Positions 4,446 through 57,003 of a stretch of 64,000 nt of DNA are shown here, in pieces (within the stretch, counting starts at the first letter, position 1; each line of letters begins with the position of its first letter). The stretch is from Nautilus pompilius (taxonomy: Eukaryota; Mollusca; Cephalopoda; Nautilida; Nautilidae). The translations under genes and the position numbers were made by a program. The stretch is taken from contig JACATO010000982.1 of assembly GCA_018389105.1 (NCBI GenBank), forward strand, positions 340,001 through 404,000. The letters are read 5' to 3'. The notes below the pieces were generated by a model. That model made no database searches. It was not told the DNA's origin and saw nothing but the letters and a program-made list of their open reading frames with translations.

Positions 4446-7400
4446 CTAGAAAGACATGAGAAGATGATGAAGTATCTACTGAGTAGGAGTGTTTAGCTCT
4501 CAAGTGTGTATGCTAAAGACTAGAGTGAAGGGGAAATTGCAATGTTAAGAAAAAACAGTATCACAGCTCCTATTTCCTCAGAACAGAACTCTCTGTGTGT
4601 TGTCAGCTTGACGTTCAAGCATCCCCATGAACAGGAAAATTTAAACCATCTATAAAATGTAGCTAATCAAACTTTACCTTGCGTTCATTTTGTGATACAA
4701 TGTCTCTTAATGGCTTATACAGATGCCATAATAACAAGTAACATCTCAGTCTACAGGTGAATGATATCATCAGGTACTTTTGTAATCTACTCTATGCTGA
4801 ATACAACTTAAGATGCAATTATAAGTATGATATCCTGGTTACAATCACCAAAGCAACTTACTGTTGCAAAATGAAAAGCCATAATCTTTTGCAAGAGAGG
4901 ACGCTACTAGTGCTCTCCTATTTTAGGTGTGAGAAAAACTGAAGTGACCAATAAAATCCAAGTCATCAGAAGAGTAAGAAAAATCATAACTTTGGCTTAT
5001 CACCAAACAGGGTTGGTCCCAAGTTGGGACTTGAAACCCTAACACTAATTAAAACCAAAGACAGTGATTTTACTAGCATGGAACTTAATCAAACTGAAAT
5101 CATAAAAAAAAGCAGTTTTGAACTCTCTAGATTCTTTCCTAAATCTGTCCACAGAATCTATCTTTCCACCTACAAACTGTGGATGATGTTTCGTGTTCAG
5201 GTCCTAACATTGCGTAGCATAAAATTACATAGGCTTACATAAAGAATGGATTGCAAGGCCACATCCCAGCATGGGAGGCCATGGGGGAAAGTCCCTAATA
5301 GATCTCTTCATTTTCAGATATAGGAGGAAACTGGAGTGTTTGGGAGAAACTTGTGTGGTCGGCTGATGGAAGATGATGAAACTCTGCCAGGGAGGTAGAT
5401 ATGCCAAACCAAGCCAGTTCTGTCCAAAATTCAAACTCAGGCCCTTAACCTTATATATACAATAGAAATTTTCTTCAACAAAAATGACGATGTTACCCCA
5501 TGTGCTATCAGAATCAATAAAAATGGCATGGCAGGCCTGCTTGTCCGATAACAGTAAATTGAATAACTATAAAACTATCTGTATTGATGTCACACTAGGG
5601 TTTATAGTATGGTCTGTGATCAACTTGTTTATTAGAAAATAAAAAAGGGACCTGAGAAAGTTTCCTCACCAAATCTCCATACTAACATTTATCAGCTGAG
5701 ATGAAATGTAGGAGAAAAAGAAAAATGGAAGCAATTTAACAAAACAAAAGGAACAAGCTACACTAACTAATGACTGTAATGAAACAAAAAATACATTTTA
5801 TTTTTTTAAAAAAAAGTAGTTATTTACCTTTCCAACTTTCATTTTATAAGTGAACCCAAAGGAGCCATTCTCAATTCTTTTTAGAGTGACAGTCTTCGTC
5901 AGTGGATCCCACACAGCTTTGGTTGGATTCTTTAACACAAGATGTGGATAATGCAGCTTTCTGCAAACCCTGTTGCCACAGTGTTTATCCTTGAGACAAA
6001 AGTTGCCATCACTTGAGTGAAGAGGGAGTGAATTTACTTGATCACCTTCCATGCCACTAAAGTTGCAAACATTACAGACTTCAAGTGGAAGAGAGTGAGT
6101 TCTGTTCTCCATGCTGTTGCTGCTGCTGATGTTGTTGTTGTTGTTGTTTATATTCATGAGAATCTCGGGAAATTTATTCTGCATGGTGTCTTCTTTATGT
6201 TGCATCTCCCTGTTTGCCCGCTTCTTGGCATGGTCTTTCTGCCGGCACGAACAAGGGTTCTCCATTGGGAAGCTGACCAGACTGGAGCTAGTTGACAGGG
6301 CCCTCTTTACTTTGGTGAAGTCAGAACCAACAAAGAAGTCATGCTGTGTTTCAGTGGCACTCAGTTTCTTTAGCTCAATGGGACAACAAGTTTCTAAGTC
6401 AACTGAGCCCTTAGTGGAAGACACCAGAAGCTGCCACACTTCACTTTCAGTTAGCTTGGTAATGTCCTGGTTATTGATTGCAACAATGCGATTGAAAGGT
6501 TTCAAAAGATTGCTGCTGGAGAATCTACAGTACTCCTTCACGTCTGTTATGAGTGTGATGCTTTGTGAGTCATTCTGTAAAGTAATGGAAAAGAAAGAGC
6601 AAAGTAAAATACAAGATATTTGGTGGTGCATCATCTCCAGAAACTAAAGAGTTGGTTTGGGCTTTTCCCCCCACTGCATAAAAAACAAAAATTGCATACC
6701 AAGACAGCCCCTTTTGTGACTTAACCCTGATGATGGAGATGGGAAAAGATTTCCAAAATGAAGGTCTCTTAGTTCAGTTACTACTGAAGCCCAATCTAAC
6801 CAACTTCTGCAGAAATAAATAACTAGAAGAAATTATGGAAATGCCTTTGTAGCACTCTAACTTATTAGTCTAATTAAATCTGTATAATTAATAGTGCATA
6901 GGCACAAATTTTGTCATGCAACGTAATAATAGTTCAAAGTAGGCACTTAATCTATTGAAATAGTATTTGTGCAAGATAAGAAATTGAATGCTAGTCTGAA
7001 AATGATAAACTAGCATGAAGTTCTAACATAACCATTACTGGGAAAATATGGCAATATACAGAGCAACAAAATGTTTCTTAAAAGAATAGCAATAAATATG
7101 AATGAACAGTGTGTATGACAAAAACTTCAAGCATTGTATCAAATAGGTTACTCATTAATAATTAATTAATTAATAGTATTAAATAGCTGAATTTATTTTT
7201 ATCTGTTAGACATTAGTCTTCATGTGTTTCCATCATTGTGAACATTAAACACTGTGTTATTACCACTGATTTTATAAAAATTAAATATGAAAAAAAGAAA
7301 ATGAGTTGTTTCACTGATAAACAACAAATGAAAAAACTTTGAAACTTTGGCCCACGTTTCATGGGCATTTTCCTTGACAATAATCAGATAGTACCAAATT

Positions 7401-10400
7401 AAAATCAAAGGATAAACATGCACATTCCTATGACATCCCAGATCGGTGTTCTACACAATTAATTCAGCTCACCTGCTGAAGTACCACTACTGCTCTGTCT
7501 TGAACTTTTTAACCAAAGAGGATATAAACATTTTTAAGAAATCTTTTCACAACCGGATCAAATTATTATTCAAGTTAAACAGAAACTAGTATGAAGCACA
7601 AGAATGTAAAATTCTAGCAAACTTTCAAATTCAGTTTTATAACAGCAGCAGCAAAAATGAAAATAAATGTTTTTTATTCTTAATAATATATTCAATCAAT
7701 TGTAGAAATAAAACTGAGTAATGGCCATTGGTGCTTGTGCACAAAACTGACTGATGTCTTTTGTAAGCGTATGAGGAAATGCATTCTATTCTGGTTGAGG
7801 TATCTGCACCTATGCTAGTGAACATCAACTAAAGTGGAAAAAGATATCTTGTAAAAGTCTGCTTTTTAGGAAGGTGAAACTGTAGTGGTGGAGAGAGAGC
7901 TGGCACAAAAGAACATGAGACATCACATCACACTACTGGTCAGACACCAAAGAGAGCAGCCCATACCCACATGTTGTGATCAGGCAATAAAAAAAAAAAA
8001 AAAATTTCCTTCTTGTGAAATATACTTCTGTAATGATTTCAAAGGATCTGGAAAAGTTTTGAAGGTTAGCATTTTAATTTGTATATGTTGTCATGTGAGA
8101 ATCTAGTCATTTTTCTTCTTTAGAAAAAAAAAACTTCTACAGCAGTCTGAATACCTAGTTTGGGCACTTTCAAAGTTTTGCAGAACATGTGACTTCTTCT
8201 CTTTTTAAATTCCATACATTGATGGACTGAAGCTAAAAAGTCCAACAGATTAAACATATTCCCAGTGTTATATTTTTATTCTGGAAAACAAATCTAATAA
8301 TTTCCATTTAAAACAACAAAAATACCCTCAACAGCCAAGAATTTGCAGTAATTATGCAATATTGTGTTCCTTATTAAAGACATGCTTTAACTGAAAACTT
8401 ATCCATGGGACATTCTTAATGATTCATGAGAAAACACTGTGTAATGTTACTAGGGAGTGTTTCTGTACAATAAGAGTGTTTTTTTAGTTGTGTGTGTGTG
8501 TGTGTGTGTGTGTAGAGTAGGGACGCTGCATTTAGAATAGGTCCTCAGAAACAGGTTCATGATGGAAACAATAACATATATATTCCAAGTTCAAAACATT
8601 TAAAACAGCTGCTATACTTTTAGTGGGTAATGTTTGTTTTGTTTTTTTTTTATTATAAAAGAAATAGCTTAGAGTGCAGTAGAAACCTAATATTAAAGTC
8701 AGGAAAGGCTGTGAGCAGGCATTCCAATGGTTGCACAGCATGAAGCATACCTATGACTCAGTCATTCCTGTGTAAGCTCCTTCAATAAAGATAAAGATCC
8801 CCACAAAGATAGGTTTTTATTAACATTAAATGAGTCAGCCTAGTGAGTCGGTCAATAAATGCTCATTATCAACATTTATTCACATCCAATAATAATTAAA
8901 AACTTTCCCTAACAGCACATGATAGATTGATAAGGGTTTAACGAAAATAAAGGGGACAATATCCTGCGCATGTAAGCATGTGGATTTTGTCTTGCCGTGC
9001 TGATTTCCCACTAAATTTCATGAAAGAGACTCTGAAAGGAATTTTACAGAAGACTATTTTATTTCCTATTTTTACAGAGTGTTACTGAAAACAGCACTAC
9101 ATGAAAAAGGGGCCAAAATGTTTTGAAAAAAAACAAAACAGCAAAAAAAATGGGTCTCATCTGGAAATAGTATTATATATATACAGGTGCATCTCAAAAA
9201 ATTAGAATATCGTGGAGGAGTTCAATATTTTTTGTCAGTTATTTCAGAAAGTGATGGACTCATTACATGTAAACTAAAATGTTTCAAGCATTTTTTAATT
9301 TTAATTTTGATAATTATGACCTACAGCTCAAAAAATAGAAAAAACGTATCTCAAAATATTAGAATATTCCATTTCGAGTTTGAGTAAATCACTATTTATG
9401 CAGTATATATACTATGAATCTCTCAGTCTGGTTCTGTACACACAACCACAATCATGGGGAAGACTGCTGACTTGACAGTTGTCCAGAAGACATTCATTGA
9501 CACCCTCCACAAGGAGGGTAAGTCACAGAAAGTCATTGTTGAAAGGGCTGGTTATTCGCAGAGTGTTGTATCAAAGCATATTCATGGAAAGTTGACTGGA
9601 AGGGAAAATTGTGGTAGGAAAAGGTGCACAAGCAAGAGGGATGACCGCAGTCTTGAGAGGATTGTCAAGCAAAGCCGATTTAAGAACTTGTGGGAGCTTC
9701 ACAAGGAGTGGACTGAGGCTGGAGTCAGTGCATCAAGAGCCACCACACATACACGTGTCCAGGAAATGGACTACGAGCAGTGGTGGGATTTAGCCAGTTT
9801 GCACCAGTTCGTGCGAACCTGTTCTTGGAATTTCATGAGTTCCGCGAACCGGTTGTTAGCCCTTAACTTATTTTATCATCAAAATATAAGGCATGAATCC
9901 AATTATTTTTGCTCTGTATTGCATGATTCATCTTGGTTTTAGAAATATCTACGGCAGCAGAAAATAGATAAAACATCCCTTATTAGTAAGTGAAATGTTC
10001 TATAATTATGCACAGCCACTAGCAGACCTGAGGGGGGGGGATGAAATGAGAAAACTGAAGAATACATAAAATCATAAAATTTATAAACAGTAATATTTAT
10101 AATTAATAATAATAGTAATAATAATTCAAAAAGCACAAACAATCAAGCATGTATATACATAGATATATCTTCATATTACTTAGTTCATTAACTATATAGT
10201 CTAATATAGAGTATCTTCGATGTAATTATAGTGATGCTTTAACCATTGTTTAGACATTTTTTTAATTTGGGAAATAATTATAATCAATGATTTGATTTGC
10301 TAAACTGTAGAAAGCGGCAGGCCGGCAGCCCAAAGATCAACCTTTGGACCTATATCGGGCCAAACCGACATGCTTTTTTGTGAGACAACTGGTTGTTAAA

Positions 10401-13400
10401 ATATTTGAATCCCACCACTGGCTACGACTGTCACATTCTTGGTGTCAAGCCACTCCTGAACCAGAGGCAACATCAGAAGCATCTTACCTGGACTAAGGAG
10501 AAAAAGAACTGGACTGTTGCTCAGTGGTCCAAAGTCCTCTTTTCAGATGAAAGTAAATTTTGCATTTCATTTGGAAATCAGGGTCCCACAGTCTGGAGGA
10601 AGAGTGGAGAGGCACAGAATCCAAGTTGTTTCAAGTCCAGTGTGAAGTTTCCACAGTCAGTGATGACTTGGGGCACCATGTCATCTGCTGGTGCTGGTCC
10701 ACTGTGTTTTATCAAATCCAAAGTCAGTGCAGCCGGTTACCAGATTTTAGAGCACTTAATGCTTCCGTCTGCTGACAAGCTTTAAGGAGATGCTGATTTC
10801 CTTTTCCAGCAGAACTTGGCACCTGCCCACAGTGCCAAATCTACTAGTACCTGGTTTGCTGACCATGGTATTACTGTTTTTGATTGGCCAGCCAACTCGC
10901 CTGACCTGAACCCCATAGAGAATCTATGGGGTATGTCAAGAGGAAGATGAGAGACACCAGACCCAACAATAGAGATGAACTGAAGGCCACTATCAAAGCA
11001 ACTTGGGCTTCCACAACACATCAGCAGTGTCACAGGCTGATTGCCTCCAAGCCACGCCGCATTGATTTGTGCAAAAGGAGTCCCGACCAAGTATTGAGTG
11101 CATAAATGAACATACTTTTCACAAGTTCGACATTTATATATTATAAGTCCTTTTTTTTTTTTTATTGATCTTATGAAATATTCTAATATTTTGAGATAGT
11201 GGATTTTTGATTTTCATGAGCTGTAAGCTGTAATCATCAAAATTAAAACAAAAAAAAGGCTTTATATATTTCACTTTATGTGTAATGAATCTAGAATATA
11301 TGAAAGTTTCAGTTTGAATTAAATTATGGAAAAAAAATGAACTCTTCCACGATATTCTAATTTTTTGAGATGCACCTGTATATATTAAAAAATAAAAAAA
11401 AGCAATGTTCAAGCTTCTTCATTTTGAAATTTGTTATTTTTTAATCTCTATTTTTAAAATATGATTAATATTTCCTGACTGGATATCAAGTTAAACTACT
11501 AAAACCACTAGGGTGCATCAAACACCCATGATTTTTAAAAGTGTCTGCTTTTTTTTTTACTTGTCCCTAGATTAATTTTTTTTCCATTATGTAAAAAAAT
11601 AACTCCTGCAAAATTTCAGCAAAATTCACATTTGTTTATGTGGGTCACCTGACGTTTGAAAATCTGAGATGCAAAGCTGCCGAATTCAGCAGGTTCAGAG
11701 ATCCAATTTTTAAATATTTAAATTTTTCATAGCTACTTGCCAGATATTGGCATTTTTTTTAAATAACACTTATGAAATCAATAAAAGGAAGTAAATAAAC
11801 AACAAATGGCGATATTTTTGCCCAACTGACTATTTTTTACCACTTTACCAACATTTTTATGCAATTCTTATCTATATTACATTAACATTAAGTCAACTTA
11901 CATGTACAGTAGACTGTACATAAAGACAACATCGATGTTGTCAGATCTGCAGATATGCATACATAATCCATGTGGAAAAGTTCTGTTCTGCTTATTTACA
12001 ATGTTTAGATTGTTTATTTAGCTGTCAGTCTTTGCCTTGCATTTTCACAGATTTGGAAGAGACCATCTGTCTTCTTCCATAACTTAAAGAACATTTTGGT
12101 AGTGATCCTCACTTCTTGATGCAGAGAGAAAATCAGAACTTAACTTCACTCCCCACTCAGCACAGTCATTGATGACATTAAGTGCATCAACATGAGCTAG
12201 GGAGGCTTGATAGGCAGCAGACTCTGGCCATGCTTCAACAGGCTATGCTAGGAACTCATGATTTATCTCAAGAATGTTCACTGTGAACCAGATGCAGTAG
12301 CACATATCAATATTACTTGTGTCTGTATCAGTTTCAGTTTCACTAAAGCTCTGGAAAGTAGTAGATGCCTTTGATATTTCTTCATTTTTCTCACGTCTCC
12401 TTAATCCTGCTTTAGCACGTTCTTCACTCCACTGAATTCTTTGAGCCAACACCTTATCACTGGGTCCAAATGTAGCAGTATGGTCTGTCTTCATTGATTG
12501 CAGAAACTGCAAGTCTTCAGGATTTTTTAATCAGTTTCTCTGCAATAGCTGGCCACAGATGAAAAGTTTGATCAAGTTTAGTTTCAACTTGTTCTAATTT
12601 AGAAAGGGTAGCTGGTGAAAAATGATGATTAACAGGCATGCTTCTGAGTTTGTTATTAGCATTCACAAGTTTTATTTTTTCACATGCCTTGCACTCTGTG
12701 ATCATGGGAATATTGGCTTTCCCATAGAATGGCACAACTTTGAGAAGCACAATTTTTGCACACTCCCACTTTGTTTGGTTCTTTGATGCACCCTTTTGAA
12801 GATGGTACATCATACAGCGTAGTACTTGTGAATCACCATCAGTAATGCCTTTTCCAAGCTCAAATATGGTTTTTGCTTTACGTGTCCCAGGAGTTGATTG
12901 TGGTGTATTAGTTAGTCTTGCTTTAGAGTCTGACTCTGGAGTTTATGAAAGTCCTGGTTCTGCTTTATCAGCCATGGTTGAGATCAAGAAAAAACACCAT
13001 TGTGCAAAAGGATGTAAATATTATAAATTGAAACCTAAGTTAAAATATACCAAATCAAAAAAATGCCTACGAAACACTTTGAAAGTATACAAAGTTTTTG
13101 ATTTTTGGTATATAAATATACCAGTTGGCAACCCTGCCTTGATCATGGATTAACTTTAGCAACATAATTATGCAATGGAAATTCTCACTTCTTTAGATTG
13201 CATGTATGTTGTGCAATAGGCTCTAATTCTAGTAATGTTTGTATTGACCTTAAAGGCAATAGGAAATCCCAATTTCTAAAAATTTCTCCTTAGTATTTAT
13301 AAGACTGTGTGAAGATGTTTTGATGTGCTGTTAATGGGAAACACAAAACCAAAAAGGAGAATTCAATTGTAAGATTGTTTCATTTGAGTCTTATTATTGT

Positions 13401-14897
13401 AAACAGCAAATTGTATATTAAAATTATGTAGGAATGCAACAACAATGTCATACTATCGGACATCAGTTTGGCAGCAACACAGTATTCAGTGATGTACATC
13501 TGGAATTTTAGTCATTTTTCTGTAAAAATATTGTTTTGAATGATCATATTCATTTCAATTAGGACTATCAATATCAGATGTAGAAATCATAGTTTGACAA
13601 TTCAGTAACTTTTAACTGACTTTTATGGTATGAATTTGCATATATCCCTTTAAGCCTTCTTAATTCGACAACCTTGCAGTCAAAATTTTCAAACACACGG
13701 TGGCCCACCTAAACCAGCTTCAAACTGCCTGAGATTTTACTGTTAGTGTTTTTTTCACTAATGGAAAACTTTTAGAGTCGGGACAGAAAAAAAGTCTGAT
13801 GGAAGGGGCGTTTGATGCACCCTAAGAACCATGGTATGACATGAGAATGTTCAAGGAATATTAACCAAAACAAGAATGTTGTTTTCAATAGGGGTTCTCT
13901 AAAAGCAAGATGTTCAAACTAATTTGTATTTCAAATTTTGATAAATGCTTGATCTTACACAATATTTCAGTACATACATAATTCTAACATCATTTAACTC
14001 TTTCACAATAACAGAATCATTTTGTGAGGTGATTATTAGTTATTTGCCAAACCCAGAAAATTCATCATTCTACAATAATTTGCTAGATGTGAAAAAAAAA
14101 AAAAAAAGGCCATTGCATAACACAATTTCAGGCGTAGATCACAGTACAGAGGTGAATCTGCATATGCAGATTTGTTTTTAGTATTTTAGGCTACAAACAG
14201 GGACATTTAAAAAATGTTTGACAATGTAATGGTTTCCTCACAAAATCATTCACAAGTGACTCTATCATCTTCTCCAGAACATGTGCTTCCCAACTATATA
14301 TCTCACTCTCTCTAAAAATTGGTGGTGTGCCTTTTATCACCAAGTCTATAGTTCTGAAATTATTGACTTGTTGTAATTAGATACAAATCCAGACTTTACA
14401 TTTGTACATTACAGGTATGTGTGCATTTCCTACTAAAACTAGCTGTTCTAAATGTCAGTTAAAACCACTTTTAAAAAAAAAAAATTATTTATTTCAATTT
14501 ATTTAATAATTAGTAATTTGTCCTAAAAATAATGCCAGGAATCTCATTAGTAAGTTAGAATTCTTTCAATGCTTGTGATCATTGAGTCCTATAAAAAGTT
14601 AACAATAAAACAGCATGTGTGCATGGACAATAACCATGTGTGATCCATTAAAGACAAAATCGTTTTTTTTTAAAAAAAACTTGGTTTTCAGTTTGGGGGC
14701 AGTTTGTAAAGTCTAAAGATCTTTAATGCCAAGTAGAAGCTAACCAAATGTTCACTTACCAGGATAGTTTTAAAGCAAAACCCAAGTTTTCTTTCTTTGG
14801 TCCAATAAACTTTAACAAAAGACGGCTTTGACCATTCAATAGCATGGGGATGTTTCTCCACAAGGTCATAGAGTAAACTTTGCTTTCCTGACCCCAT
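4197..14897 (-). CDS. Tandem PDZ-domain protein, family not identified (3 coding exons)
   Basis: Three minus-strand exons (14897-14760, 6574-5828, 4445-4197) have good splice sites, all in phase 0, and give about 377 residues. Residues about 25-110 form PDZ1: the carboxylate-binding loop reads KLGFCF, and the second half has PFNRIVAINNQDITKLTESE, matching the usual RI-x-x-I/V-N pattern. Residues about 110-265 are a low-complexity linker with a cysteine-containing stretch (CSCRQKDHAKKR) and an Asn run coded by a microsatellite. Residues about 270-350 form PDZ2, with loop SFGFTY split by the last intron, then VEFVQADSPAYGKL and VDGT. PDZ domains bind C-terminal tails and scaffold complexes at membranes or junctions. 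There is no transmembrane segment or other domain. ATG at 14897 is chosen because an in-frame stop lies 30 bases upstream. The partner is unknown; the PDZ assignment is firm, the gene identity is not. Confidence 0.7.
5230..5450 (-). mobile_element. tRNA-derived SINE, degraded copy
   Basis: Shares, in the same order as the copies at 40.9 kb and 47.0 kb, the blocks TTCATTTT(C/T)AGAT, GGAGGAAAC, GAAGATGATGAAA and CAAACTCAGGCCCTTAA. The last block corresponds to the tRNA-like B-box on the other strand, so the element reads on the minus strand. It lies in the last intron of the PDZ gene. Confidence 0.6.
5828..6574 (-). CDS. PDZ gene, coding exon 2
   Basis: A 747-base exon with acceptor TTTACAG|AATGAC and donor AAG|GTAAAT, both phase 0. 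It codes the rest of PDZ1, the 150-residue linker and the first strand of PDZ2. The polyasparagine run around residue 187 is coded by an AAC repeat (about 6118-6155) and probably varies in length between individuals. Confidence 0.75.
6575..9180. other. PDZ gene intron 2, no gene recognised
   Basis: AT-rich intronic DNA with short A runs (7988-8004) and a (TG)n run at about 8490-8512. No exon, RNA gene or transposon terminus was recognised. Confidence 0.5.
9454..9777 (+). pseudogene. Tc1 transposase, N-terminal part
   Basis: Begins MGKTADLTVVQKTFIDTLHK and contains the paired-type helix-turn-helix (KSQKVIVERAGYSQSVVSKH) and the GRPR-like hinge region (GRENCGRKRCTSKRDDR). The frame is open until the hAT insertion at 9778, after which the reading frame enters foreign sequence. 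Confidence 0.88.
9778..10420. mobile_element. hAT-type MITE nested inside the Tc1 element
   Basis: Terminal inverted repeats CAGTGGTGGGATT at 9778 and its complement ending at 10420, then further similarity to an AACCGGTTGTTA-type subterminal motif at both sides. Flanks ACTACGAG and GCTACGAC match at 6 of 8 positions, fitting a decayed 8-bp hAT target duplication. It splits the Tc1 coding sequence exactly, so it is younger than the Tc1 insertion. It has no transposase of its own. A tract of G (10032-10039) and AT-rich repeats lie inside. Confidence 0.88.
10421..11105 (+). pseudogene. Tc1 transposase, catalytic part (broken)
   Basis: Holds the DDE region: first Asp in VLFSDESKF, second site in FQQNLAPAHSAKST, third in DWPANSPDLNPIENLWG. 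At the second site Asn replaces the catalytic Asp. A stop follows SADKL near 10783, and further frame breaks follow the third motif. The protein is therefore dead several times over, independently of the nested MITE. Confidence 0.9.
11511..13822 (-). mobile_element. TIR DNA transposon of unassigned family
   Basis: The ends are GGGTGCATCAAACACCC (11511) and its imperfect complement ending at 13822, both flanked by TA. Similarity between the ends continues inward for about 85 bases (shared GTCTG/T-run/TGTCCC/TTTTCCATTA blocks), so the TIRs are long and diverged. The 2.3 kb interior holds a minus-strand coding region described separately. The TA flank suits Tc1-mariner-like targets, while the terminal sequence does not match Tc1, mariner, Tigger, hAT or piggyBac types that I know. 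It could also be a PIF-like element with a TWA target. Confidence 0.75.
12140..12975 (-). pseudogene. Unfamiliar protein of the TIR element, broken
   Basis: From ATG at 12975 on the minus strand the frame reads MADKAEPGLS, a stop, then continues through KAKTIFELGKGITDGDSQVL, MMYHLQKGASKNQ, a KVVPFYGKANIPMI segment and LPSKLEQ-like helices to a stop at 12517. A second open stretch in another frame (12512-12243) is rich in charged residues (RIQWSEERAKAGLRRREKNE). The layout is a short helical domain followed by a charged coiled segment, plausibly DNA- or protein-binding. No DDE, RVE or zinc-finger signature is evident. One stop and one frameshift make it a pseudogene. Function is unknown. Confidence 0.5.
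13825..14759. other. PDZ gene intronic DNA, nothing recognised
   Basis: AT-rich sequence between the TIR element and PDZ coding exon 1, with short A/T runs at 14093-14107, 14471-14482 and 14662-14679. No conserved coding potential seen. Confidence 0.45.
14760..14897 (-). CDS. PDZ gene, coding exon 1
   Basis: Starts at ATG 14897 and codes 46 residues beginning MGSGKQSLLYDLVEKHP and reaching the first PDZ strand and loop (KLGFCFKTIL). The donor is CTG|GTAAGT on the minus strand, phase 0. A possible acceptor lies just upstream (…GCTTAG), so the exon also carries a little 5' UTR. Confidence 0.7.
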
Positions 14898-19970: not shown

Positions 19971-20544
19971 CAGGGTTATTCAAAAAGAATGAACCGATTT
20001 CATGACGCATTACTTCAGTTCTCAAGCATCGTCATGGAATGAGTCAGTGACCATTTGAAAGAGGAGTTTTCTAAGTTTTGATTGGCTGCCACAGGGGGCG
20101 CTGTAGTCGCATTGTTCCTCTGGCAACATTCAGTTGTTTGTTTACCCTCAGAATGGCGAGTCCTCAACAAAAGGCGTTCTGCGTTCTCGAGTTTGCGAAA
20201 ACAAAATCGGTTCTCACAGTGCAGCGTGATTTTTTCTTATGGGGATATGTAAAAGATTGCGTTTATGATCCACCACTACCCACTAACCTCGATGACTTTA
20301 AACATCGAATAACAACAGCAATCAACTCAGTGGATCATGATATGCTAATACGCGTCTGGGAGGAATTCTCTTATCGCATTGATGTTGCCCGTGCTGCAGG
20401 TGGTGGCCACATTGAACACTTGTAAGTCAGGAAATAAAACTTGATTGTGAGTAGAATACTTGTGACTTAGCTGGAGTTTTCTATTGCTTTTCCTTATTAA
20501 AATATTGCGTAATGAAATCGGTTCATTCTTTTTTAATAACCCTG
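19971..20544 (+). mobile_element. Short DUF4817-type Tc1/mariner-like mini-element
   Basis: Inverted repeats CAGGGTTATTCAAAAAGAAT… (19971) and …ATTCTTTTTTAATAACCCTG (ending 20544), extending through GAACCGATTTCAT, flanked by TA. Total 574 bases. It sits just beyond the MULE relic. The element keeps a fused remnant of its transposase and is non-autonomous. Confidence 0.9.
20153..20425 (+). pseudogene. Deleted transposase: DUF4817 HTH start joined to C-terminal tail
   Basis: A 90-residue open frame. Residues 1-24 (MASPQQKAFCVLEFAKTKSV) are the start of the DUF4817 helix-turn-helix found in many arthropod and other animal transposases. Residues about 28-90 (YVKDCVYDPPLPTNLDDFKH … VARAAGGGHIEHL) are the extreme C-terminal end of the same proteins. 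The whole DDE core between them is missing, yet the frame stays open to its natural stop. The internal deletion therefore joined both ends in frame, or left a frame open by chance. Confidence 0.8.
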
Positions 20545-29633: not shown

Positions 29634-30355
29634 ATGGAGAGAGAGGAGAGGAGAGAGCTGGTGGGAGAGAGGAGAGACAGAGAGATGGTGGAGAGAGATA
29701 GAGAGAGATGGTGGAGGGAGAGAGAGAGAGATGGAGAGAGAGATGGAGAGGAGGAGAGAGAGATGGTGGAGAGAGAGAGAGAGATGGGGAGGGAGAGAGA
29801 GAGAGACAAAGAGATGGTGGAGAGAGAGAGAGAGAGATGGTGGAGAGAGATAGAGAGAGATGGTGGAGGGAGAGAGAGAGAGAGAGATGGTGGAGAGAGA
29901 TAGAGAGATGGTGGAGAGAGAGAGGAGAGATGGTGGAGAGAGATAGAGAGAGAATAGTGGAGGAGAGAGAGAGATGGTGGAGAGAGAGAGAGATGGTGGA
30001 GATAGAGAGATGGTGGAGAGAGATAGAGAGAGATGGTGGAGGGAGAGAGAGAGAGAGAGAGATTGGTGGAGAGAGATAAATAGAGAGAGAGATTAGAGAG
30101 AGAGATGGTGGAGAGAGAGAGAGGAGAGGAGAGAGAGAGATTGGTGGAGAGAGATAAATAGAGAGAGAGAGAGAGAGAGAGAGAGATGGTGGAGGGAGAT
30201 AGAGCGAGGAGAGATGTTGGAGAGGCGAGATAGGAGAGATAGAGAGAGATGGGGGGAGAGAGAGATGGTGGAGAGAGAGATAAATAGAGAGAGAGAGATA
30301 GAGAGAGATGGTGGAGGGAGAGAGAGAGAGAGATGGTGGAGAGAGATAGAGAGAG
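29634..30355. repeat. GA-rich minisatellite, GAGATGGTGGAGAGAG units
   Basis: About 720 bases of almost pure purine on the plus strand. Variable units alternate (GA)n runs with GATGGTGGA and GATAGAGA. Long open frames on both strands here are products of the repeat (Arg/Glu-rich on plus, Ser/Leu-rich on minus) and not genes. It lies about 0.9 kb downstream of the putative first exon of the PDZ gene, in its first intron. Confidence 0.95.
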
Positions 30356-49100: not shown

Positions 49101-52100
49101 TTAGCAGACTGAAGACATGGATTTTTCCTGGGCTGCCATGTTGTCATTTTCTTTTTTTTTTTTAATTGTGCAATGTCTTTTAGAGCGTCACAGAGAAAAT
49201 GTTGCTTTTGCATATCATGTGTGAATGAGATATTGAAGATCCCTGTAGAAAGGGAGGAATTATTCGAATCAGGGGAGTTCAGGTCAAGAACTGTATTTGC
49301 CAGAAGTAGCAGCAGGAATCTGGAATGAATATAAACATCACAAGCTTCAAAGAGAGAATAAGAGAGATGCCGGTTTCTTCATGTTTCTGCTGGATGGAAA
49401 CATCTCATCTTGCATAGCTTTTAGTAGCTGATGATGATGTGACTTAAAACACATTTCTTTAATTCTGTAATTTGTTGGTCTTCAAGCTCATTCATTGTTG
49501 TAAATGTTCTTTCTATCCAAAGGCTCTGTCTGCATGCTGATGGACATTTATTTTTAGTATATATAATAAAGATCCTATTATCAGAAGGAAGCAAGAATGT
49601 TTTGCCATGTCATAGCATTTCTGAAGGATGCCAAAAGGACATTTTTTAGTATTTATGAGGAATATCTGAAGGAGCTACAGAAATACAGCCTTCACACAGA
49701 CTCTTATTTCATTATGTAAAGAGCTGTAATGGGGGAAAACTCTTCTATTGGAGAACTATTTTTTATTTGGTCTCAACATTATCTATTTCAGATAAGGGAT
49801 TTGTGTGTGTGTGGTGGGAGTTGGGTTTCTTCTTATACTGTAACAGAGCAGAAGATATTTCCATGAGTCTCCACTTACAAGAGGATTCCAAACAGAGACA
49901 TTTTTACTTTTAAACCTAAACTTGAAAGTAGATTATGAAGTATATTAATAGATAAAATCGCTGACATGCAGCTTGAAGTAAGCCTCCCCCAAGTTGTAAA
50001 ATTTATTGGTTTCAAAACAAACAGTGTAAATTATGCATTTAAGTATCTTCAGACATCTCAGAACCTTTCATTAGCTGATTTTGTGTAGCCTATATTCATA
50101 ATTTGATTTCCTGTTTCTAAGGATACAAAATTACACCACAAATGGTCTTATTCTATCTTATTTATAGAGAAACTGGCTCGCCTTGATAATGTTGTAAGAA
50201 AATCATGACAGTTTAATTAATTTCATTGAAATTAATGCAGTATTTTTAGCAAAATCCATTTGAATTTTATATGCTTAGAAGTTTTTTTTCAACTGAATAG
50301 ACTAAAGGATAAGGCTGACTTGTATCTTTTTTAAAAACGAATTAAGTGGACAGAAAAGCAAGTCTCCAGTTTTTTGTTGGATATGTCTTTATAACACTAC
50401 TTTTTTTTAAAGTTAAATTCTGAATCTATTTGTCTTAAAAAAGGAAAAGGTTCTGAATGGGTGTCCATAGAATTTAGATCGCTTTTCCAATGTTTGTTTA
50501 AACAAAGATATTTTACATTGCTTGAGGTTGCAAAAGTACATCTGTGAAAGACTGCTGAGTACATACAGTGCTGGACAAAAGAGTTGGGACACTTGCTGTG
50601 AAATTGTTATTTGAGCTCTCTTGTTTTTACATTTGCATACAGATAGCCATCCTATTGTCCATAAGTTGTATAAAACATGCCTTTACAATGTGTAAAAACA
50701 ACGAATGTCATATGCATATCTGTTGTCTGGGAAAAATATTTGAATTAACATAGTCAAATTTGTACCGCGACAAAAGAGTTGGGACAATGAACAAAATCTG
50801 TGCATACATTTATTCCCCTCAATATATTCATTTTTAAAGGATCAAATGAGTAGAATCACATCATCTAAGACCATTTAAGATCATTTTTGCACCATGCCTG
50901 GCAAGACAACGTCGTCTGAAATCAGAGATTTGATAGTTGATCACCACCAAGAAAATCTATCTTGTCAGGAGATAGCTGATCGAGTCAGTAGCCCAAAAAG
51001 CACTATAAACCGTATTCTGAAGCAGTACAAGGAGACCGGAAACACGAAACCAAAAATGTGAATCAGAAGACCACAAAAATGTGATGACAAAATGGATCAA
51101 CTCATTTGTCGCAAATCCAGTGCCAATTGTTTCCTGACATCGATGGCCATTGGAGCCTTCCTGAGTGGAGTGAATGTCTCCAGTCGCACTATTCAACACT
51201 GTCTATGCGAGGGGAATCTCTTTGGATGAATTGCCCAGAAAAAGCCATTGATCAGCAACAAGAACAGGCGCATCTGCATAGCATGGGCTAAAGTGCACAA
51301 AAACTGGACCAAAGTTCAATGGGCTAGAGTTCTTTTTTCCGACGAAATGATGATCATGTGCATTCACAGTGCTGGCTGAGTATAGGTTTGACGTTACTAT
51401 GGTGAAAAATACAATATAAAGTGCACCCAACCGACAGTACAGGCCAGAGGAGGATCGTTGATGGTCTGGGGTATATGAGCTCAGCGGGACCAGGCCCCTT
51501 CAAGTTGTTCAGGGGCAGAGCAGCCGCCCAGACATACTCCAATTTACTGAGGGATGTCATCATCGACTCTTCCAGAATGACAATGCCCCAATCCACACCA
51601 CCAGAATCGTCACTTCCCTCACCACCAAACTAGGAATAGATGTCATATGCTGGCCGCCCCAAAGTCCAGATCTCAACCCAATAGGTGGCCAAACAAGAAT
51701 CTCAACCAAGACCAATTCTGGCAGGCCGTCGAGAAAAGCTGGCAGGAAATGGTCAATTCTGACTGCTTTTGTTTGGTTGAATCCATCCCCTGTCGTTGTT
51801 GAGAAGTAATCAAAAATCACGGATACGCCACCCACTACTAGTCAATTGATCATTTCCATGCATTTGTTCAATTGTAATTTGGAATGTTGAAAAATATTTA
51901 TGGTTTTGCTCACTGTCCCAACTCTCTTGTTGCGGTACAAATTGGACATTGCCAATTCAAATATTTTTTCCAGAGAATATGTAAATATATAGCATGTGTT
52001 GCTTTTATACATTGTAAAGTCATGTTTTGTGCATATAGTAAACAATGTGATTGGTATTTAAATGCATTTGTTAAAACAAGGGAGCTCAAATATCAATTTC

Positions 52101-55100
52101 ACAGCAAATGTCCCAACTCTTTTGACCAGCACTGTAGTTCGAATTTCCTGACTGAGAAAAGAAAATAAAAAATCCAAAGAAAAATTCTGATTTAGCAATG
52201 TCAACAAGGTGAATAAATGGACCAGTAACTGGTGTACACTTAGCTTATTGAATTTTGAGGCTGCCATGTAAAAGTGATATTGGCTCTTATAGTGTTCCAA
52301 GTTTGGGTGGGTAGTGGGAAGGAGAAGAAATTTGTTCTAACTTTTTCTTTGAGAGCTCTACAATGAGGTTAGGACTAAATGACAAGAAAATTGAAGTAGA
52401 AATCATGTTTATTTAAAAACAATGCTTTGGAAAATGTGTGGTCTGTACTCTGACATTTCTATAATGTGTCAGGTCGTGCTGTGTTTATTGTTTGATTGAA
52501 TCTAGAAAATGCCTTTTGTGTATTCAATTCTGCTGTTTGTTTATTTATTTTTTTGTTGTAATGACTGCATCTTTCATGTAATAGTCAACATTTCTAAATA
52601 CGGATGAAAACCAGTTTTGTTTTTTGGCCTTCCAGTAATAGTGATGAGGATAATAGTAAGAAATCTACCTCATTTCAACAGAACTTAAGAGTAACAGAAT
52701 ATAAGTAAAAATTATATATTACCGTTTTTTATTCTGGTGTCTAATTTTCTCTAAATAGACATGGAAACTTAATTGTGGAAGAATTCAAACTAAATATATC
52801 TTTGGTTATGAATGGTTTTTTCATGCTTATTTGTTTTATGATGATAATGTTGATGATAAAGTATAATTCATTTGTTTTTACACCCACACAAATTTTGGCT
52901 TTCTAGTGATGTCTCTACATTTACAAAACAGCTCTTCCTCTATTAAGGTTAGTGCACCACTTACACACACTCAATTTTGGAAAGATTCAAACACACCTGA
53001 ATTCATACACGTTACCAATGTTTTTGCACATTTTATAATTCATATTCTTCTTAATAAGGGTAATGTTTCAATGCTTATGGTGTTTCAAAAGCCACTGCCA
53101 TGGCCCCACATTCAGAATTATTGTCATGTTGCACACTCAAAACGTTGAATTATTATTTTCTTTGTTCTGAAGCTTGCAGGTATCATGCTATCAATTGCAT
53201 ACTTGAACTGAAAGTCGTACAGTCTGACAGTTGAATGGTTGTCCTTCCTAAGTGTTGCTAATGGTAACCCAGTGATTTTGGTTGACATGTAAAGATTGAC
53301 TGAAAGCCTTTTCCATTCAAGTTTTGCTGCAGCCCAACAGTTTTGAAGCCACTGATGTGTGTATTGTTCATGTGTTCATCATTTATCTGTTGTGTGGGAT
53401 CATGTTTTTTCTCATTTGACATGCTATCAGTCAATTGTGTCTTCATTGACAGTAATTAGTAAATTTCAGGTTCTTTTTCTTACAATACAACATACAACTT
53501 AACAAACACTTCTGCAACAACACAACTTTTAAAATTCATTTTGGAGATTTATTTTCAGTGCTTGCTTTTAGGAATGCTAAGTTATCTCGATTTACCATCA
53601 CTTCTGTATATGCCAGCAAGTCACCACAATCCCAAAGTCACAACCTAAAATATCATATTGCTTGTCTACTCCTCAAACTTTAACCACTCTTGGTTCAAAT
53701 ATAGGCAAGGCCAGCTCTTCCTGCATGTTTTAGCCATTGTACCACTGCATCATACTTTATGTGATTATTGAAGTTTGTGAATTCAATAATGATTGCATAT
53801 AATTCATGTGTCATCTCTTGTGTTTCATCCAAAAAAATGACAGCTATATGCACATTGCACTGTATACGTAGTATCTGATATCATTCTTTATAATTGGGAA
53901 ATCATACAGCATGATTGTAAAATTGTGCTCAACAGTATTATATTCATCTTTGTTATCCGCTTGAACTGATAAAGTTCAATTTATTATAAATATTCAACAT
54001 CTGGAACAGTTCTGTAGCATCTAAAATGTTAGTAGACCACTGGTTTATATTTTTGCTTTTAGCTTAATACATTCAGGTAATTTTGGTAATAAAAACCTAA
54101 ATTAATTTCTTTTTTATTTGAGGACAGAAGTTAATATAAATTGTGTTACAATAAAGAGAACAGTCTACATCATTCGAAGATAACTCAGTGGATTTGCCTG
54201 TTTTATATAAATGCTAGAAGGTTAGTAATCAAATATTGTTAAATAAATATAAAATTTATTTGATTTTAGGAAGTTTGAAGTAGTCTTGATTTTCACTGTT
54301 TCTAATTTCCAGTCTGATTATTTTCTCATAGTAGAGGTTTGAATGCAAATTAAATGTTTTTCTCCATGGTTCACTTTTAGTTAATGGACTGTAGCAGTAT
54401 ATACAAGTAATCTGCGCTTTCTCTATTACAATTGCCCCACCTACTGTTGGCTATGCGCGCTTAACACTTATGTATGTTTTGCTTTCTTTTTACATTTTTT
54501 GTATTCCTAATCAAAGATTTGCTGTTGAGGGATGTCATTTGTGAAATAATTTACATACCTTTAGAATTGACTAAGCTGTATGGAAATAAATTTAATGTTT
54601 GCAGCTTTCATTTCAGTTTCTCCAGTCAGAACTAAATCCAAAAAGAGCAAGAAGAAAAGAAAAAGAATGTCAGATTACTCTGGCTCAGGTATGTAGTTTG
54701 TCTCTCCCTCTCTCTTTAATATTAGCTTTCATTGAAGTATTGTTCAAATCTGTCGTTTCTGTAAAGTTGCATTGGAAGTCATTTTATATTTTGCGTGTGC
54801 AAGATCTAAGAGTTTGGCTAATTGCACCATTTACTTTCATTCTTATTATCTATTCTGGACCATCACTCCTTGGTGATGCATTTTCAGTAGGAATATGATC
54901 TATCATTTTGGTTTTTGTTGTTGTTTTTTTTTTTATTTTCAAAACTTAAAATAGCAATCTGAAGCATACGATGTCTGTCCAAAAAGAAACCAAACTTTTT
55001 AAAAAACAAATTTATTGCTTTAGTTACAATTTAATTAGACTTCTCCACCGTTGATACACCGCTCCCAACATTTTTTCCAGTTTTGCAATGCGTCCTGGAA

Positions 55101-57003
55101 CGCGTTTTCAAGGATAGTGCACAGTTCTCATAGCAAATTTTCTTCGATCTCTTTTATCATCTGAAATTGGTGACCTTTCAGGGTGGATTTCAACTTTGGG
55201 AAGAAAAAAAACGTCCGCAGGGGCCAGATCCGGAGAGTAGGGTTAGGGCAGAAACGATCAAAGAGCTCCTGACTGACTGTGACTCGGTTCTCTTTTTGTT
55301 CATCTGTCAGCAGACGCGGCACCAATTTTGCGTCTACACGATGCATGTTCAATTTTTCTTTTAAAATCATGTGGCACGAACTCTTACAGATACCTACTTC
55401 TTCGGAAATTTCACAGACAGTCAGGCAACGATTTCCACAGATCACAGCACGCACTTTCTCAATGTGATTGTCGTCCATTGTCATGGAAGGTCGTCCAGAT
55501 TTGTGATTGTCTTCGGTGTTCTTCCCGATTTGAAACACTGGCACCACTCGTGACATTGCGTACGGCTCAAACAATCCCACCCATAGGCCTGTTGCAACAT
55601 CAGGAAAGTCTCCATGAAAGTTTTTCCCAATTTGAAACAGAATTTCACACAAACACGTTGCTCTTCAAGATCCTTTATTGTTCAACTTGCAACAAATTGC
55701 CAAGTGCACTAAACGTACATTCACTCCAGTGCGTGTAGATCGGTGACTAACTAACGTGGCGTGATGCAGCTACTATTATACTGAAGGTCAAGGTCACTGA
55801 TACACAGCACTGCAGTCACGAGCACGCTGTGCCGGCTGGTTGGTGTGTTGTTTTAAAAGTTCAGTTTCTTTTTGGACAGACCTCATACATTATTAGGGAA
55901 GGCATTTGGCTGGCATAACATGCTTGTACACCAGAGCAGTGACCTCTGTAACTCATCTTTTCTGGTGGACTTCCTTAATGGAGTTGGAGTTATGAGAGGG
56001 TCTGGGTGTTCTGACTCTAAGGCAGGTCTTTTCAACATGAACCTGTACAGGTTGACCCAGTTGGTCAGCAGTAGGGCTGCATATTCTACTACAAACTGCA
56101 GAGGTACCCAGCCCCACAACCCTGTGGTGGGACAGAGGATCACAAAGATGATCAACTATTATATACATTTAAAAGGAAAAAAAATGCTGAAATGAGAAAA
56201 TAACTGCATTTACTAAGCAGATCTTTTAATATATCAAATTTTAGAAATGATAAGATGGCAGCTTTAATGAACTTTATTTCACAGAATATATTTACTGATA
56301 ATATATTTAAAAAAAAAAAAAATTGATGGGCATGTCAAAAACAGTGGCAGTCCATTTTAGGAAATAATTTTGTAACATAGTAGCAACAGTTTGAAATTGA
56401 TGGAGTATCTTTTCTAAAGTTTGGATGAAGGCTGTTTTTCATACAATGGGGTTAACACGATTTGTAACAAGATGGTGTTCACTGTTTCTGATTGTTCTGG
56501 GTGTCTGGAAAATGAGGTGGTCTCTCCTGTGGGTTTTCTCTCACTCCCATGACTAGAAAAGTCAGTGTTGTCAATTATGTCTGTTCTCACATTACTGTTG
56601 TGTACAGCAGGGGAGTATCAGAAGAGGAAGCAATAACTAGGTTCAGTCTTAACTACTTCTCTTTGCAGACCACAGATCCAAGTGGAAGAAAAGGGAACAC
56701 TCAGAGGATGGCCTTGGTATGTACAGAAACAATGTACCCACATCTCAGCAGAGTACCAGCACCAGGATTTCTGCAGACGAGTCCGACAGGACTGCTAATA
56801 CTAGTGTGGACTTTGACAGGTCATTGCTCGTGAAGGAAAAGAAGAAAAAACACAAAAAGAGATCTGAACCAATAAGGCAGGATGTGTGTGGCTTTCTGAA
56901 TGGATATGATCCACCATTAGAGACAGCTGAGTATTTGAGGCTGAACGATTTTCCAAACAGATCCACATCAAAAAAGAAAAAAAGAAAACATGCAGATGAC
57001 TAA
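33900..57003 (+). CDS. POLR1G: POLR1G (RPA34.5/PAF49), RNA polymerase I subunit, 8 exons
   Basis: Eight plus-strand exons join in phase into about 354 residues. POLR1G pairs with POLR1E/PAF53 as the TFIIF-like dimerisation module of nucleolar RNA polymerase I and supports rRNA gene transcription. Recognition rests on three family blocks: ELWLIKAPCDF (exons 2-3; human ELWLIQAPADF), LSGEKVITKGK with KKHEIC (exons 3-4), and the exon 6 segment MPEGLQIRYKPFGS, matching the IPPGLRPRF region. The tail (exons 7-8) is the basic Lys/Arg-rich segment typical of the family, with KSKKSKKKRKR and a final SKKKKRKHADD. Human has a far longer Lys-rich repeat tail, so this protein is short. A polyadenylation signal AATAAA is at 57193. 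The first exon is the least certain part. Confidence 0.88.
34340..35800 (-). pseudogene. hAT-family transposase relic in POLR1G intron 1
   Basis: Minus-strand pieces in order: ATG near 35793 (MSSKNTKVTIEKKPPLKAIR), a core piece at 35586-35359 with CVVGIGCPAPILHNCIQNG, a middle piece near 34870-34800 (WVKPFDELDCFDW), and a C-terminal dimerisation piece at 34689-34351 with VENVLSLINAQWTKERNRLM. These match hAT proteins of the ZMYM/ZBED-like kind. At least six stops or frame breaks occur. It is distinct from the relic at 20.7 kb, which has a different motif set. Confidence 0.75.
35827..35846. promoter_or_regulatory. Palindromic double E-box
   Basis: CACGTGAC-CCAC-GTCACGTG: two perfect inverted 8-mers around a 4-base spacer. 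Each half is an extended E-box of the kind bound by USF/TFE/MITF-type bHLH-Zip proteins. It lies just upstream of the hAT relic's start and may be that element's promoter or part of its terminus. Confidence 0.6.
35946..36073. repeat. Inverted repeat, 30-base arms
   Basis: ATTAGAATAGAAT(T)GCTTAAGAGG at 35946 and its near-perfect complement ending at 36073, with about 64 bases between. It may be a tiny MITE or a folded transcript element within POLR1G intron 1. Confidence 0.75.
36674..36704. repeat. (TC)n microsatellite
   Basis: About 15 TC units with a single interruption, next to the MITE at 36716. Confidence 0.9.
36716..36991. mobile_element. hAT MITE with perfect 8-bp target duplication
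   Basis: 276 bases bounded by CAGGGGCGGACTGAG and CTCAGTCCACCCCTG inverted repeats, with CTCGAAAG directly duplicated at 36708-36715 and 36992-36999. Internal GGGCCC/GCCCGAGGGCC repeats occur near both ends. The perfect duplication indicates a more recent insertion than the other MITEs. No coding capacity. Confidence 0.95.
37740..37878 (+). repeat. Dispersed direct repeat, copy 2
   Basis: Same orientation as copy 1 at 32920, sharing AAATCCTAAATACTCGTCAA and CGATACGTAATCATCGTGGC. Differences are scattered substitutions and small indels. Sequences outside the 137-139 base unit are unrelated. Confidence 0.88.
37879..39600. other. POLR1G intron 1, coding-like but unassigned block
   Basis: Less AT-rich than the surrounding introns, with short open stretches on both strands but no stable frame or recognised domain. 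It begins exactly where direct repeat copy 2 ends. An old retroelement or processed sequence is possible; I cannot name it. Confidence 0.35.
39725..39854 (+). CDS. POLR1G: POLR1G exon 2
   Basis: Acceptor after a long T/C tract (…CTTTCCTTGATTAG), donor GAT|GTAAGT, phase 0 at the end. Codes an acidic lead (EPVDDLSQEASE) and the diagnostic NSELWLIKAPCD. A second possible acceptor lies six bases on and keeps the frame. Confidence 0.85.
40850..41115 (-). mobile_element. tRNA-derived SINE copy in POLR1G intron 2
   Basis: Contains TTCATTTTTAGATGTGGGAG, GCTGGTGAAGAAGCG, AGAAGAAACCTTGCC and CAAACTCAGGCCCTTAA in the family order. The right end stops inside the B-box part, so the tRNA head is truncated. 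Confidence 0.7.
42049..42123 (+). CDS. POLR1G: POLR1G exon 3
   Basis: Acceptor CATTTCAG, donor AAG|GTAAAT, 25 codons in phase 0. Codes FDIFRLSGEKVITKGKQKLK, matching the F-x-x-x-x-LSG-x-x-I-x-KGK block of the dimerisation domain. Confidence 0.85.
42198..43313 (+). mobile_element. Degraded Tc1-like element
   Basis: Ends ACTAGCTGGACACTTTATTA (left) and TAATAAAGTGGCCAGC (right) are imperfect inverted repeats, flanked by TA-containing sequence. The interior keeps transposase fragments, including the late motif region LNVIEHL*DELER and a VDLCHVVSHAIQTKGG tail. Many stops and frameshifts are present. It lies in POLR1G intron 3. Confidence 0.8.
43314..44519. other. POLR1G intron 3, nothing further recognised
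   Basis: AT-rich intronic sequence; includes a short GT-rich run right of the Tc1 end. No exon evidence apart from exon 4. Confidence 0.4.
44520..44567 (+). CDS. POLR1G: POLR1G exon 4
   Basis: Acceptor CTTCTTCAG, 16 codons (KEKKHEICSLENSDLK), then AAG|GCAAGT, a GC donor of strong consensus otherwise. The exon supplies the segment equivalent to human KRHRYRVLSS, so skipping it would remove a core strand. Confidence 0.75.
44568..46248. other. POLR1G intron 4 (GC-AG)
   Basis: Starts GCAAGT and ends TTATTATAG. No mobile element or other gene recognised inside. Confidence 0.55.
46249..46303 (+). CDS. POLR1G: POLR1G exon 5
   Basis: Acceptor TTATTATAG, donor GCAG|GTATGA, 55 bases ending in phase 1. 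Codes CEDFSIILPDDKGKRRIA, a strand-turn-strand fit to the dimerisation barrel. Confidence 0.78.
46805..47160 (-). mobile_element. tRNA-derived SINE, near full length, POLR1G intron 5
   Basis: Right end, read on the minus strand, gives GGTGGCTCAGTCATTACACC (A-box-like) and GCCCAAGCTTCAATCCTC (B-box-like), the tRNA head. The body shows TTATTTTTAGATGTGGAGG, GTGCCTGAGGAAG and AGCTGGTGAAGAAAAG. The left end resembles the tail of the 27.6 kb copy. Confidence 0.75.
47869..48006 (+). CDS. POLR1G: POLR1G exon 6
   Basis: Acceptor TTTATTTGCAG, donor TCAG|GTTCTT, entered and left in phase 1. Codes VQPFKGQMEIVKCAKSV and MPEGLQIRYKPFGS, matching the GTLRI…IPPGLRPRF region of the human protein. Confidence 0.88.
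48007..50565. other. POLR1G intron 6, left part
   Basis: AT-rich intronic DNA with T runs and a short GT run near 49802. No exon or transposon end recognised. Confidence 0.45.
50566..52134 (+). mobile_element. Tc1-like transposon, CAGTGCTGGACAAAAGAGTT ends
   Basis: 1.57 kb with inverted repeats from CAGTGCTGGACAAAAGAGTT (50566) to its near complement ending 52134, flanked by TA. The motif GTTGGGAC appears twice on the left and its complement twice on the right, fitting the IR/DR plan of paired transposase-binding sites. It lies in POLR1G intron 6. Confidence 0.93.
50893..51840 (+). pseudogene. Tc1 transposase, broken
   Basis: Begins MPGKTTSSEIRDLIVDHHQE with the HTH (LSCQEIADRVSSPKSTINRI). 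A stop interrupts the GRPR-like hinge (KPKM*IRRPQK). The catalytic part keeps ARVLFSDEM, then QNDNAPIHTTRI and WPPQSPDLNPI, so the first two Asp are present, but the last motif is interrupted and several stops or frameshifts lie between. Confidence 0.85.
52135..54616. other. POLR1G intron 6, right part
   Basis: AT-rich intronic DNA without recognised exons, RNAs or element ends. Confidence 0.45.
54617..54688 (+). CDS. POLR1G: POLR1G exon 7
   Basis: Acceptor CATTTCAG, donor TCAG|GTATGT, phase 1 to phase 1. It codes a basic segment KSKKSKKKRKRMSDYSGS, likely a nuclear or nucleolar targeting signal. Confidence 0.8.
54969..55885 (-). mobile_element. Internally deleted mariner element
   Basis: 917 bases with inverted repeats containing GTCTGTCCAAAAAGAAAC near both ends, flanked by TA (54967-54968 and 55886-55887). 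Typical mariners are about 1.3 kb, so about a third is missing. It lies in POLR1G intron 7. Confidence 0.92.
55128..55652 (-). pseudogene. Mariner transposase with catalytic core deleted
   Basis: The frame runs through a glycine/arginine hinge (HKSGRPSMT), the second HTH (LTVCEISEEVGICKSSCHMI) and the linker VPRLLTDEQKENRV up to the start of the catalytic domain, then jumps to the C-terminal block FFFFPKLKSTLKGHQFQ. The D,D34D residues between are absent. The deletion left the frame open. Confidence 0.85.
55890..56668. other. POLR1G intron 7, right part
   Basis: Contains a less AT-rich block at 55905-56160 with coding-like texture but no recognised protein, then AT-rich sequence to exon 8. 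Confidence 0.35.
56669..57003 (+). CDS. POLR1G: POLR1G exon 8 (last)
   Basis: Acceptor CTCTTTGCAG, 110 residues and TAA. It begins DHRSKWKKREHSEDGLG, then a Ser/Thr-rich stretch, KEKKKKHKKRSEP, and ends STSKKKKRKHADD. Two Lys-rich patches suit the family's charged tail. Confidence 0.85.

Follow-up and report, generated by a model that had tools for sequence, protein, structure and literature searches.

The hAT superfamily of DNA transposons usually carries short terminal inverted repeats (TIRs) of 10–25 bp (PMC3942097). Its member Hermes prefers target sites of the form nTnnnnAn (PMC10368747). P elements with internal deletions encode repressors of transposition, such as the 207-aa KP protein (PMC7776569). 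Novosib, P, Merlin, MuDR and Zisupton are listed as further superfamilies in Repbase, according to PMC4455052. The element described here lies in a 64,000-nucleotide stretch of the Nautilus pompilius genome (contig JACATO010000982.1, positions 340,001 to 404,000), hereafter the window, and was compared with these systems.

The whole element spans positions 11509–13824 of the window. Both TIRs open with TAGGGTGCATCAAAC. In coding orientation, the right TIR (13622–13824, minus strand) forms the 5' end of the element and the left TIR (11509–11710, plus strand) its 3' end. The terminal motif GGGTGCATCAAAC at 11511 (plus) and 13822 (minus) was identical in 13 of 13 positions, in agreement with the preliminary description, which had recognised a DNA transposon with inverted ends. 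That description had followed the similarity about 85 bases inward, but the gapped, imperfect inverted similarity was measured over about 190 bp. The local alignment score of the TIRs was 120, whereas 2000 first-order Markov shuffles reached 62 at most; without the outer 17 bp, the corresponding values were 107 and 59. Among 1000 random pairs of 200-bp stretches from the window, one outscored the TIR pair (161). In the family consensus, the local alignment of the TIRs extended to about 240 bp with a weak tail. The element is flanked by the left target-site duplication AAAACCAC (8 bp, 11501–11508) and the right target-site duplication AGAACCAT (13825–13832), which agree in six of eight positions; an agreement this good is found in 0.76% of equally spaced pairs in the window. 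An internal GGGTGCATCAAA at 12793, inside the open reading frame (ORF), was considered as a third end and rejected, as the family consensus reads GGGTGCATCGAAG there; the longer match at this position is one CpG-type change away from the consensus and was taken as coincidence. A 24-bp direct repeat within the element (11842 and 13153) was present once in the window and in none of 12 shuffles.

The minus-strand coding orientation noted earlier was confirmed. With 141 aa, the longest ORF of the element is only moderately unusual by itself (43 of 2000 shuffles reached that length), and the coding nature of the frame is concluded from the other copies instead of from ORF length. The 5' coding remnant (12291–12975, minus strand, ATG at 12975–12973) comprises about 237 N-terminal residues of the transposase and is interrupted by a stop at 12943–12945 and a frameshift near 12525. 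The 3' coding remnant (12018–12290, minus strand) corresponds to the transposase's C-terminus and contains three in-frame stops (12243–12245, 12084–12086 and 12045–12047) before the natural stop at 12018–12020. Both remnants meet at a deletion junction at 12290/12291 (minus strand; consensus positions 1664/3133), where about 1.47 kb with the catalytic core is gone, and about 38 nt more are missing just 5' of the junction in the window copy. Instead of the one stop and one frameshift reported before, the frame thus shows at least four in-frame stops, the frameshift near 12525 and the large deletion. Compared with the 834-aa consensus protein, the window pieces matched residues 1–162 with 84%, residues 161–237 with 91% and residues 731–834 with 81%. 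In Pfam, the pieces had no match above the cut-off, the best being DUF3885 and DUF2630 with E values of 0.036–0.037; PDB gave no match with an E value below 0.18 and PHROGs gave no match.

The window element is very probably a decayed, non-autonomous and internally deleted copy of a family of cut-and-paste DNA transposons. Its protein is what the deletion of the catalytic core left of the family's own transposase, an N-terminal and a C-terminal part. The protein had been described as lacking a DDE signature, which holds for the window pieces because the core of about 1.47 kb was lost; the core is present in other copies of the family. The element had also been suspected to be non-autonomous and to carry an accessory or captured gene. 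The first part stands, while the gene turned out to be the two ends of the transposase. Taken alone, the window protein without a transposase signature would suit an accessory protein or a gene taken up from the host, but in the full-length copies this coding sequence runs on directly into the transposase core, which makes a captured or accessory origin extremely improbable.

The collection of further copies, the derivation of a consensus and a test of the target-site length had been suggested as checks and were carried out, the last with the flanks of many copies in place of empty sites. The same 728-Mb assembly with 2558 contigs was searched with the coding stretch of the window as query. 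Forty copies including the window were scored out of 145 candidates, confirming that many copies hold the same ORF, and the 39 further copies were fetched with their flanks. As the query carried the N-terminal coding part, the sample represents copies that retained this part. The long copy matches were 86–92% identical to the query, the window's own match aside. The alignment broke at element position 1543, corresponding to window position 12290 approximately, and several copies were about 1.25–1.5 kb longer at this point. A consensus was built from 14 copies (L019, L021, L029, L031, L036–L040, L045, L048 and L051–L053). It comprised 3920 bases with short flanks and 3889 bases end to end, with two-ended long copies of 3.55–3.81 kb, and coded for one frame of 834 aa after one residual frameshift was bridged by hand.

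The core was kept to at least 90% in 14 of the 40 copies, partially in five and not at all in 21, the window among the latter. One copy, L050, aligned to consensus positions 963–1954 only, so that its missing core may have a different cause. The 14 core-keeping copies differ from the set used for the consensus by the addition of L025 and the omission of L036, which kept 78%. All 14 consensus copies were broken, with 6–22 stops, counted on aligned pieces that partly overlap, and at least two frames each. Four stops were also present in the best match to the core that a broader search gave, on contig C2007. Outside CpG sites, the 40 copies diverged from the consensus by 0.027–0.050 (K2P), and their CpG sites differed from it in 6–38%. 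Divergence and CpG pattern would fit one burst of transposition in a methylated genome. On contig C591, the copies L037 and L038 are inverted relative to each other and separated by about 28 kb. Their scores and frame breaks are identical, and they probably reflect either an inverted duplication or a duplicate in the assembly.

The target-site duplication was analysed with 27 two-ended copies, namely 26 fetched copies and the window. The flanks agreed in at least six of eight positions in 21 of these copies and in all eight in seven. No clear 8-bp duplication was visible in the other six, L023, L028, L036, L037, L039 and L044. Mismatched flank pairs reached the same level in 132 of 700 cases, a high background that results from the strong and uniform target motif. 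Both ends carried TA in 22 of the 27 copies. The eight bases outside this TA varied from copy to copy, and the two flanks of one and the same copy matched in 21 of the 27. Consequently, the target duplication is 8 bp long and TA is the opening of the TIR (TAGGGTGCATCAAAC). The TA reported outside both ends is indeed there, but it belongs to the TIR and not to the target site. TA on both sides of GGGTGC...GCACCC would be expected of a TA-targeting transposon with a Tc1/mariner-like duplication. This interpretation is refuted by the copies, in which 8 bp are duplicated outside the TA instead of the 2-bp TA. The family consensus contained no DDE_3 or related Pfam domain.

The common flanks of L047 and L049 suggest a segmental duplication. 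L049 was dropped, and a target consensus was calculated from both flanks of 20 copies. It reads ATRTACAT, with A in 30, T in 33, G in 22 or A in 16, and T in 24 of the 40 flanks at positions 1–4, followed by A in 30, C in 26, A in 32 and T in 23 at positions 5–8. The target was nearly palindromic, with a mirrored complementarity of 0.56 compared with 0.26 for random 8-mers.

Internal deletions were shared between several copies. The junction of the window copy at consensus positions 1664/3133 was also present in L015, L016 and L017 (1659/3132 in L016), and these four copies occupy different 8-bp sites. Given the shared junction at different sites, a single deletion product must have transposed on three or more further occasions. 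In L041, the junction was almost identical but for about 30 additional bases. A second group with a junction near 1790–1801/3298 comprised L018, L023, L024, L026, L032, L035 and L047 with its duplicate L049, and a third group near 1764–1767/2898 comprised L034 and L043. The remaining deletions were single. Repeats in the consensus were found at the sides of the first junction (TGGT) and the third junction (AGCATTCA), and the deletions may have formed by faulty gap repair at such microhomologies. The deleted copies probably moved with transposase made elsewhere, which would have been supplied in trans.

In the consensus of the first group, the N-terminal frame was open up to the junction and stopped just after it, giving 256 aa. 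In the consensus of the second group, the N- and C-terminal ends were joined in frame, with a frameshift at the EKLIKK site. The open frame of the four-copy subfamily, together with the precedent of deleted P elements encoding repressors such as KP, raises the question of whether the truncated N-terminal protein of 256 aa repressed transposition in the manner of KP. We consider this unlikely, since any deletion copy that formed recently should still have its frame open, and the window copy is now broken.

The consensus protein showed the conserved blocks HWDSK, FDTTSSNTG, CRHH, ARW and LTSEM and a C-terminal NDCAERG block. On the consensus, LHWDSK starts at nucleotide 1992, MVFDTTSSN at 2202, CRHH at 2298, KARWMAK at 2632, HLWYLTSEM at 2911 and NDCAERG at 3253. 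Candidate residues of a D/D/E triad were picked by eye. Of the 15 sequences compared, comprising the consensus and 14 copies, the first D and the E were each kept in 14, the second D in 11 and W in 13, and C was present in all 15. The family transposase is a protein of about 834 aa with an N-terminal part, a putative DDE-type core that contains the first five blocks, and a conserved C-terminal part. Judging from the motifs seen by eye, the core may adopt an RNase H-like DDE fold, and the N-terminal part presumably binds the long TIRs.

Database searches left the family without an assignment. In Pfam, the consensus had matches only below the cut-off, to DUF2630 (E value 0.022) and KAP (E value 0.048). 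The best PDB matches, with E values of 0.46, 0.27 and 0.62, were all to non-transposases, and NCBIfam yielded nothing. No match to Novosib, Merlin, MuDR or Zisupton was obtained with the consensus among the models that Pfam holds for them. As first described, the family is unfamiliar, without a significant match in Pfam, NCBIfam or PDB and without sequence similarity to an experimentally known transposase. Searches of phages and plasmids with tblastn and of phages with blastn gave no match. Viral contigs contained nothing related to the window proteins, the motif patterns, the TIR or the core; the hits L002 and L003–L006 on such contigs were judged to be chance matches, as was L001, a single match in a pattern search of genome contigs. 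Full-text literature searches found no description of the family, although one may exist.

Diverged relatives were present in the same genome. A search with the core gave 111 matching stretches, and 92 of 569 candidates were scored. Among the scored matches, 30 were 29–37% identical to the core and 28 of these 30 had no stop in the matched stretch. The open frames of the 30 relatives ranged from 425 to 801 aa, and seven were 796 aa long. L054, a piece of 761 bases and the only relative whose letters were examined, was 38% identical to the consensus core. It keeps HWDGKLLP, FDTTASNTG, ACRHH, RDDY and ARWMAK, and the piece ends before the E block. Its Pfam search gave no significant match. Two core-motif patterns, fixed before any core was known, matched L054 exactly. 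We take these patterns to be those of uncharacterised animal transposase-like proteins, sometimes called Cc8L18.2-like or Cc8K15.2-like, and similar uncharacterised proteins presumably occur in many animals. The pattern DTTxSNTG had 60 exact matches in the genome, of several sequence types and unchecked individually, compared with four for the reversed control. By sequence comparison, the window family is one of several related families in this genome. Near-equal scores and open frames suggest that some of the related families were probably active recently.

Concerning superfamily affiliation, the window family appears hAT-like in its action. Its chemistry most likely resembles that of hAT elements with an 8-bp stagger. 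Membership as a strongly diverged hAT lineage, whose domains lie beyond the reach of the Pfam models, is a quite plausible though less than even prospect. Consistent with it, the target-site duplication is 8 bp, with agreement in at least six positions in 21 of 27 two-ended copies, and the nTnnnnAn preference of the Ac/Hermes group is reflected in T at position 2 in 33 of 40 flanks and A at position 7 in 32 of 40. The opening TAGGG of the TIR is also hAT-like. The order of motifs, D, D, CxxH, RW and E, resembles that of hAT transposases such as those of Hermes, Ac and Buster by eye. The spacing was 69 between the first and second D and 28 between the second D and C, compared with 69 and 27 in one hAT fragment from the same genome, the single comparator, also read by eye.

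Other features argue against a hAT affiliation. The TIRs of about 190 bp are far longer than the 10–25 bp of hAT elements, and the dimerization domain Dimer_Tnp_hAT (PF05699) was not found by Pfam in the 834-aa consensus with E values up to 10, a range in which the HMMER filters drop most matches above 0.1. There was no detectable sequence similarity to the one hAT fragment from the genome, with hhalign probabilities of 0.1 and 0.2, and the end-gap-free global alignment of the consensus core with this fragment gave a z-score of −0.86. The hAT fragment itself had no Pfam or PDB match of note, so that the negative results with Pfam and PDB carry little weight.

The alternative is a DDE superfamily separate from hAT with an 8-bp duplication, or one of the named superfamilies Novosib, P, Merlin, MuDR and Zisupton. 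Duplications of about 8 bp are made by some of Novosib, Merlin, MuDR and Zisupton. This alternative is a reasonable possibility, somewhat short of an even chance. Neither the consensus core nor the 38% identical relative had a significant match to a family model, the family has its own conserved N- and C-terminal parts, and several diverged families occur in one genome. On the other hand, the preferred target, the start of the TIR and the order of the motifs lean towards hAT, and the comparison with the named superfamilies was made through Pfam models only. As for the P superfamily, the 8-bp target-site duplication and internally deleted copies are common to both, and Galileo, a member of it, has long TIRs as well, a parallel only (PMC7776569 and PMC3688188). 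The consensus had no THAP or other P-element domain in Pfam. The AT-rich, palindromic target of the window family is unlike the P motif.

More specifically, the family may tentatively be viewed as part of an undescribed or unnamed DDE superfamily defined by the core HWDxKLLP...FDTTxSNTG...CRHH...ARWMAK, with several diverged families in one genome. If so, and with equal reservation, the NDCAERG C-terminus, the long TIRs with TAGGG and the palindromic ATRTACAT target would be features of the window family, and long open frames and many near-identical copies would be features of some related families, pointing to probable recent activity.

As a non-autonomous derivative, the window copy is nothing unusual, and the family behind it matters more. 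With at least 40 copies and no significant Pfam match, its proteins are likely left uncharacterised by domain-based annotation. The mechanism can be tested on the relatives with open frames of 796 aa, and the palindromic 8-bp target may be of interest in the search for transposition tools.

Other features were observed in passing. No feature was found in the window by Rfam and tRNA scans. The element is adjoined by a remnant at 9168–11394, presumably Tc1-like, with inverted arms at 9168–9232 and 11330–11394 (65 nt, 89%). Its ORFs at 9418–9942 and 10384–10785 had no Pfam match. At 50576–52124, inverted arms extending outward beyond their seeds surround an ORF at 51462–51809 with a match to DDE_3 just below the cut-off (E value 4.5e-06). 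Inverted arms at 54973–55881 surround an ORF at 55128–55664, which we assume to be mariner-like and which had no Pfam match at an E value of 0.001. A 550-bp MITE-like sequence at 19983–20532 has inverted arms from nine merged 13-mer seeds. The ORF at 5798–6643 is a possible host exon; its match to PDZ was weak (E value 0.00033) and did not reach the curated cut-off. Across the genome, PF05699 was very abundant, with 150 matches scored out of 3065 candidates and some open frames of at least 618 aa. A degenerate GA-rich tandem array of 700 bp was located in the window at 29637–30355.
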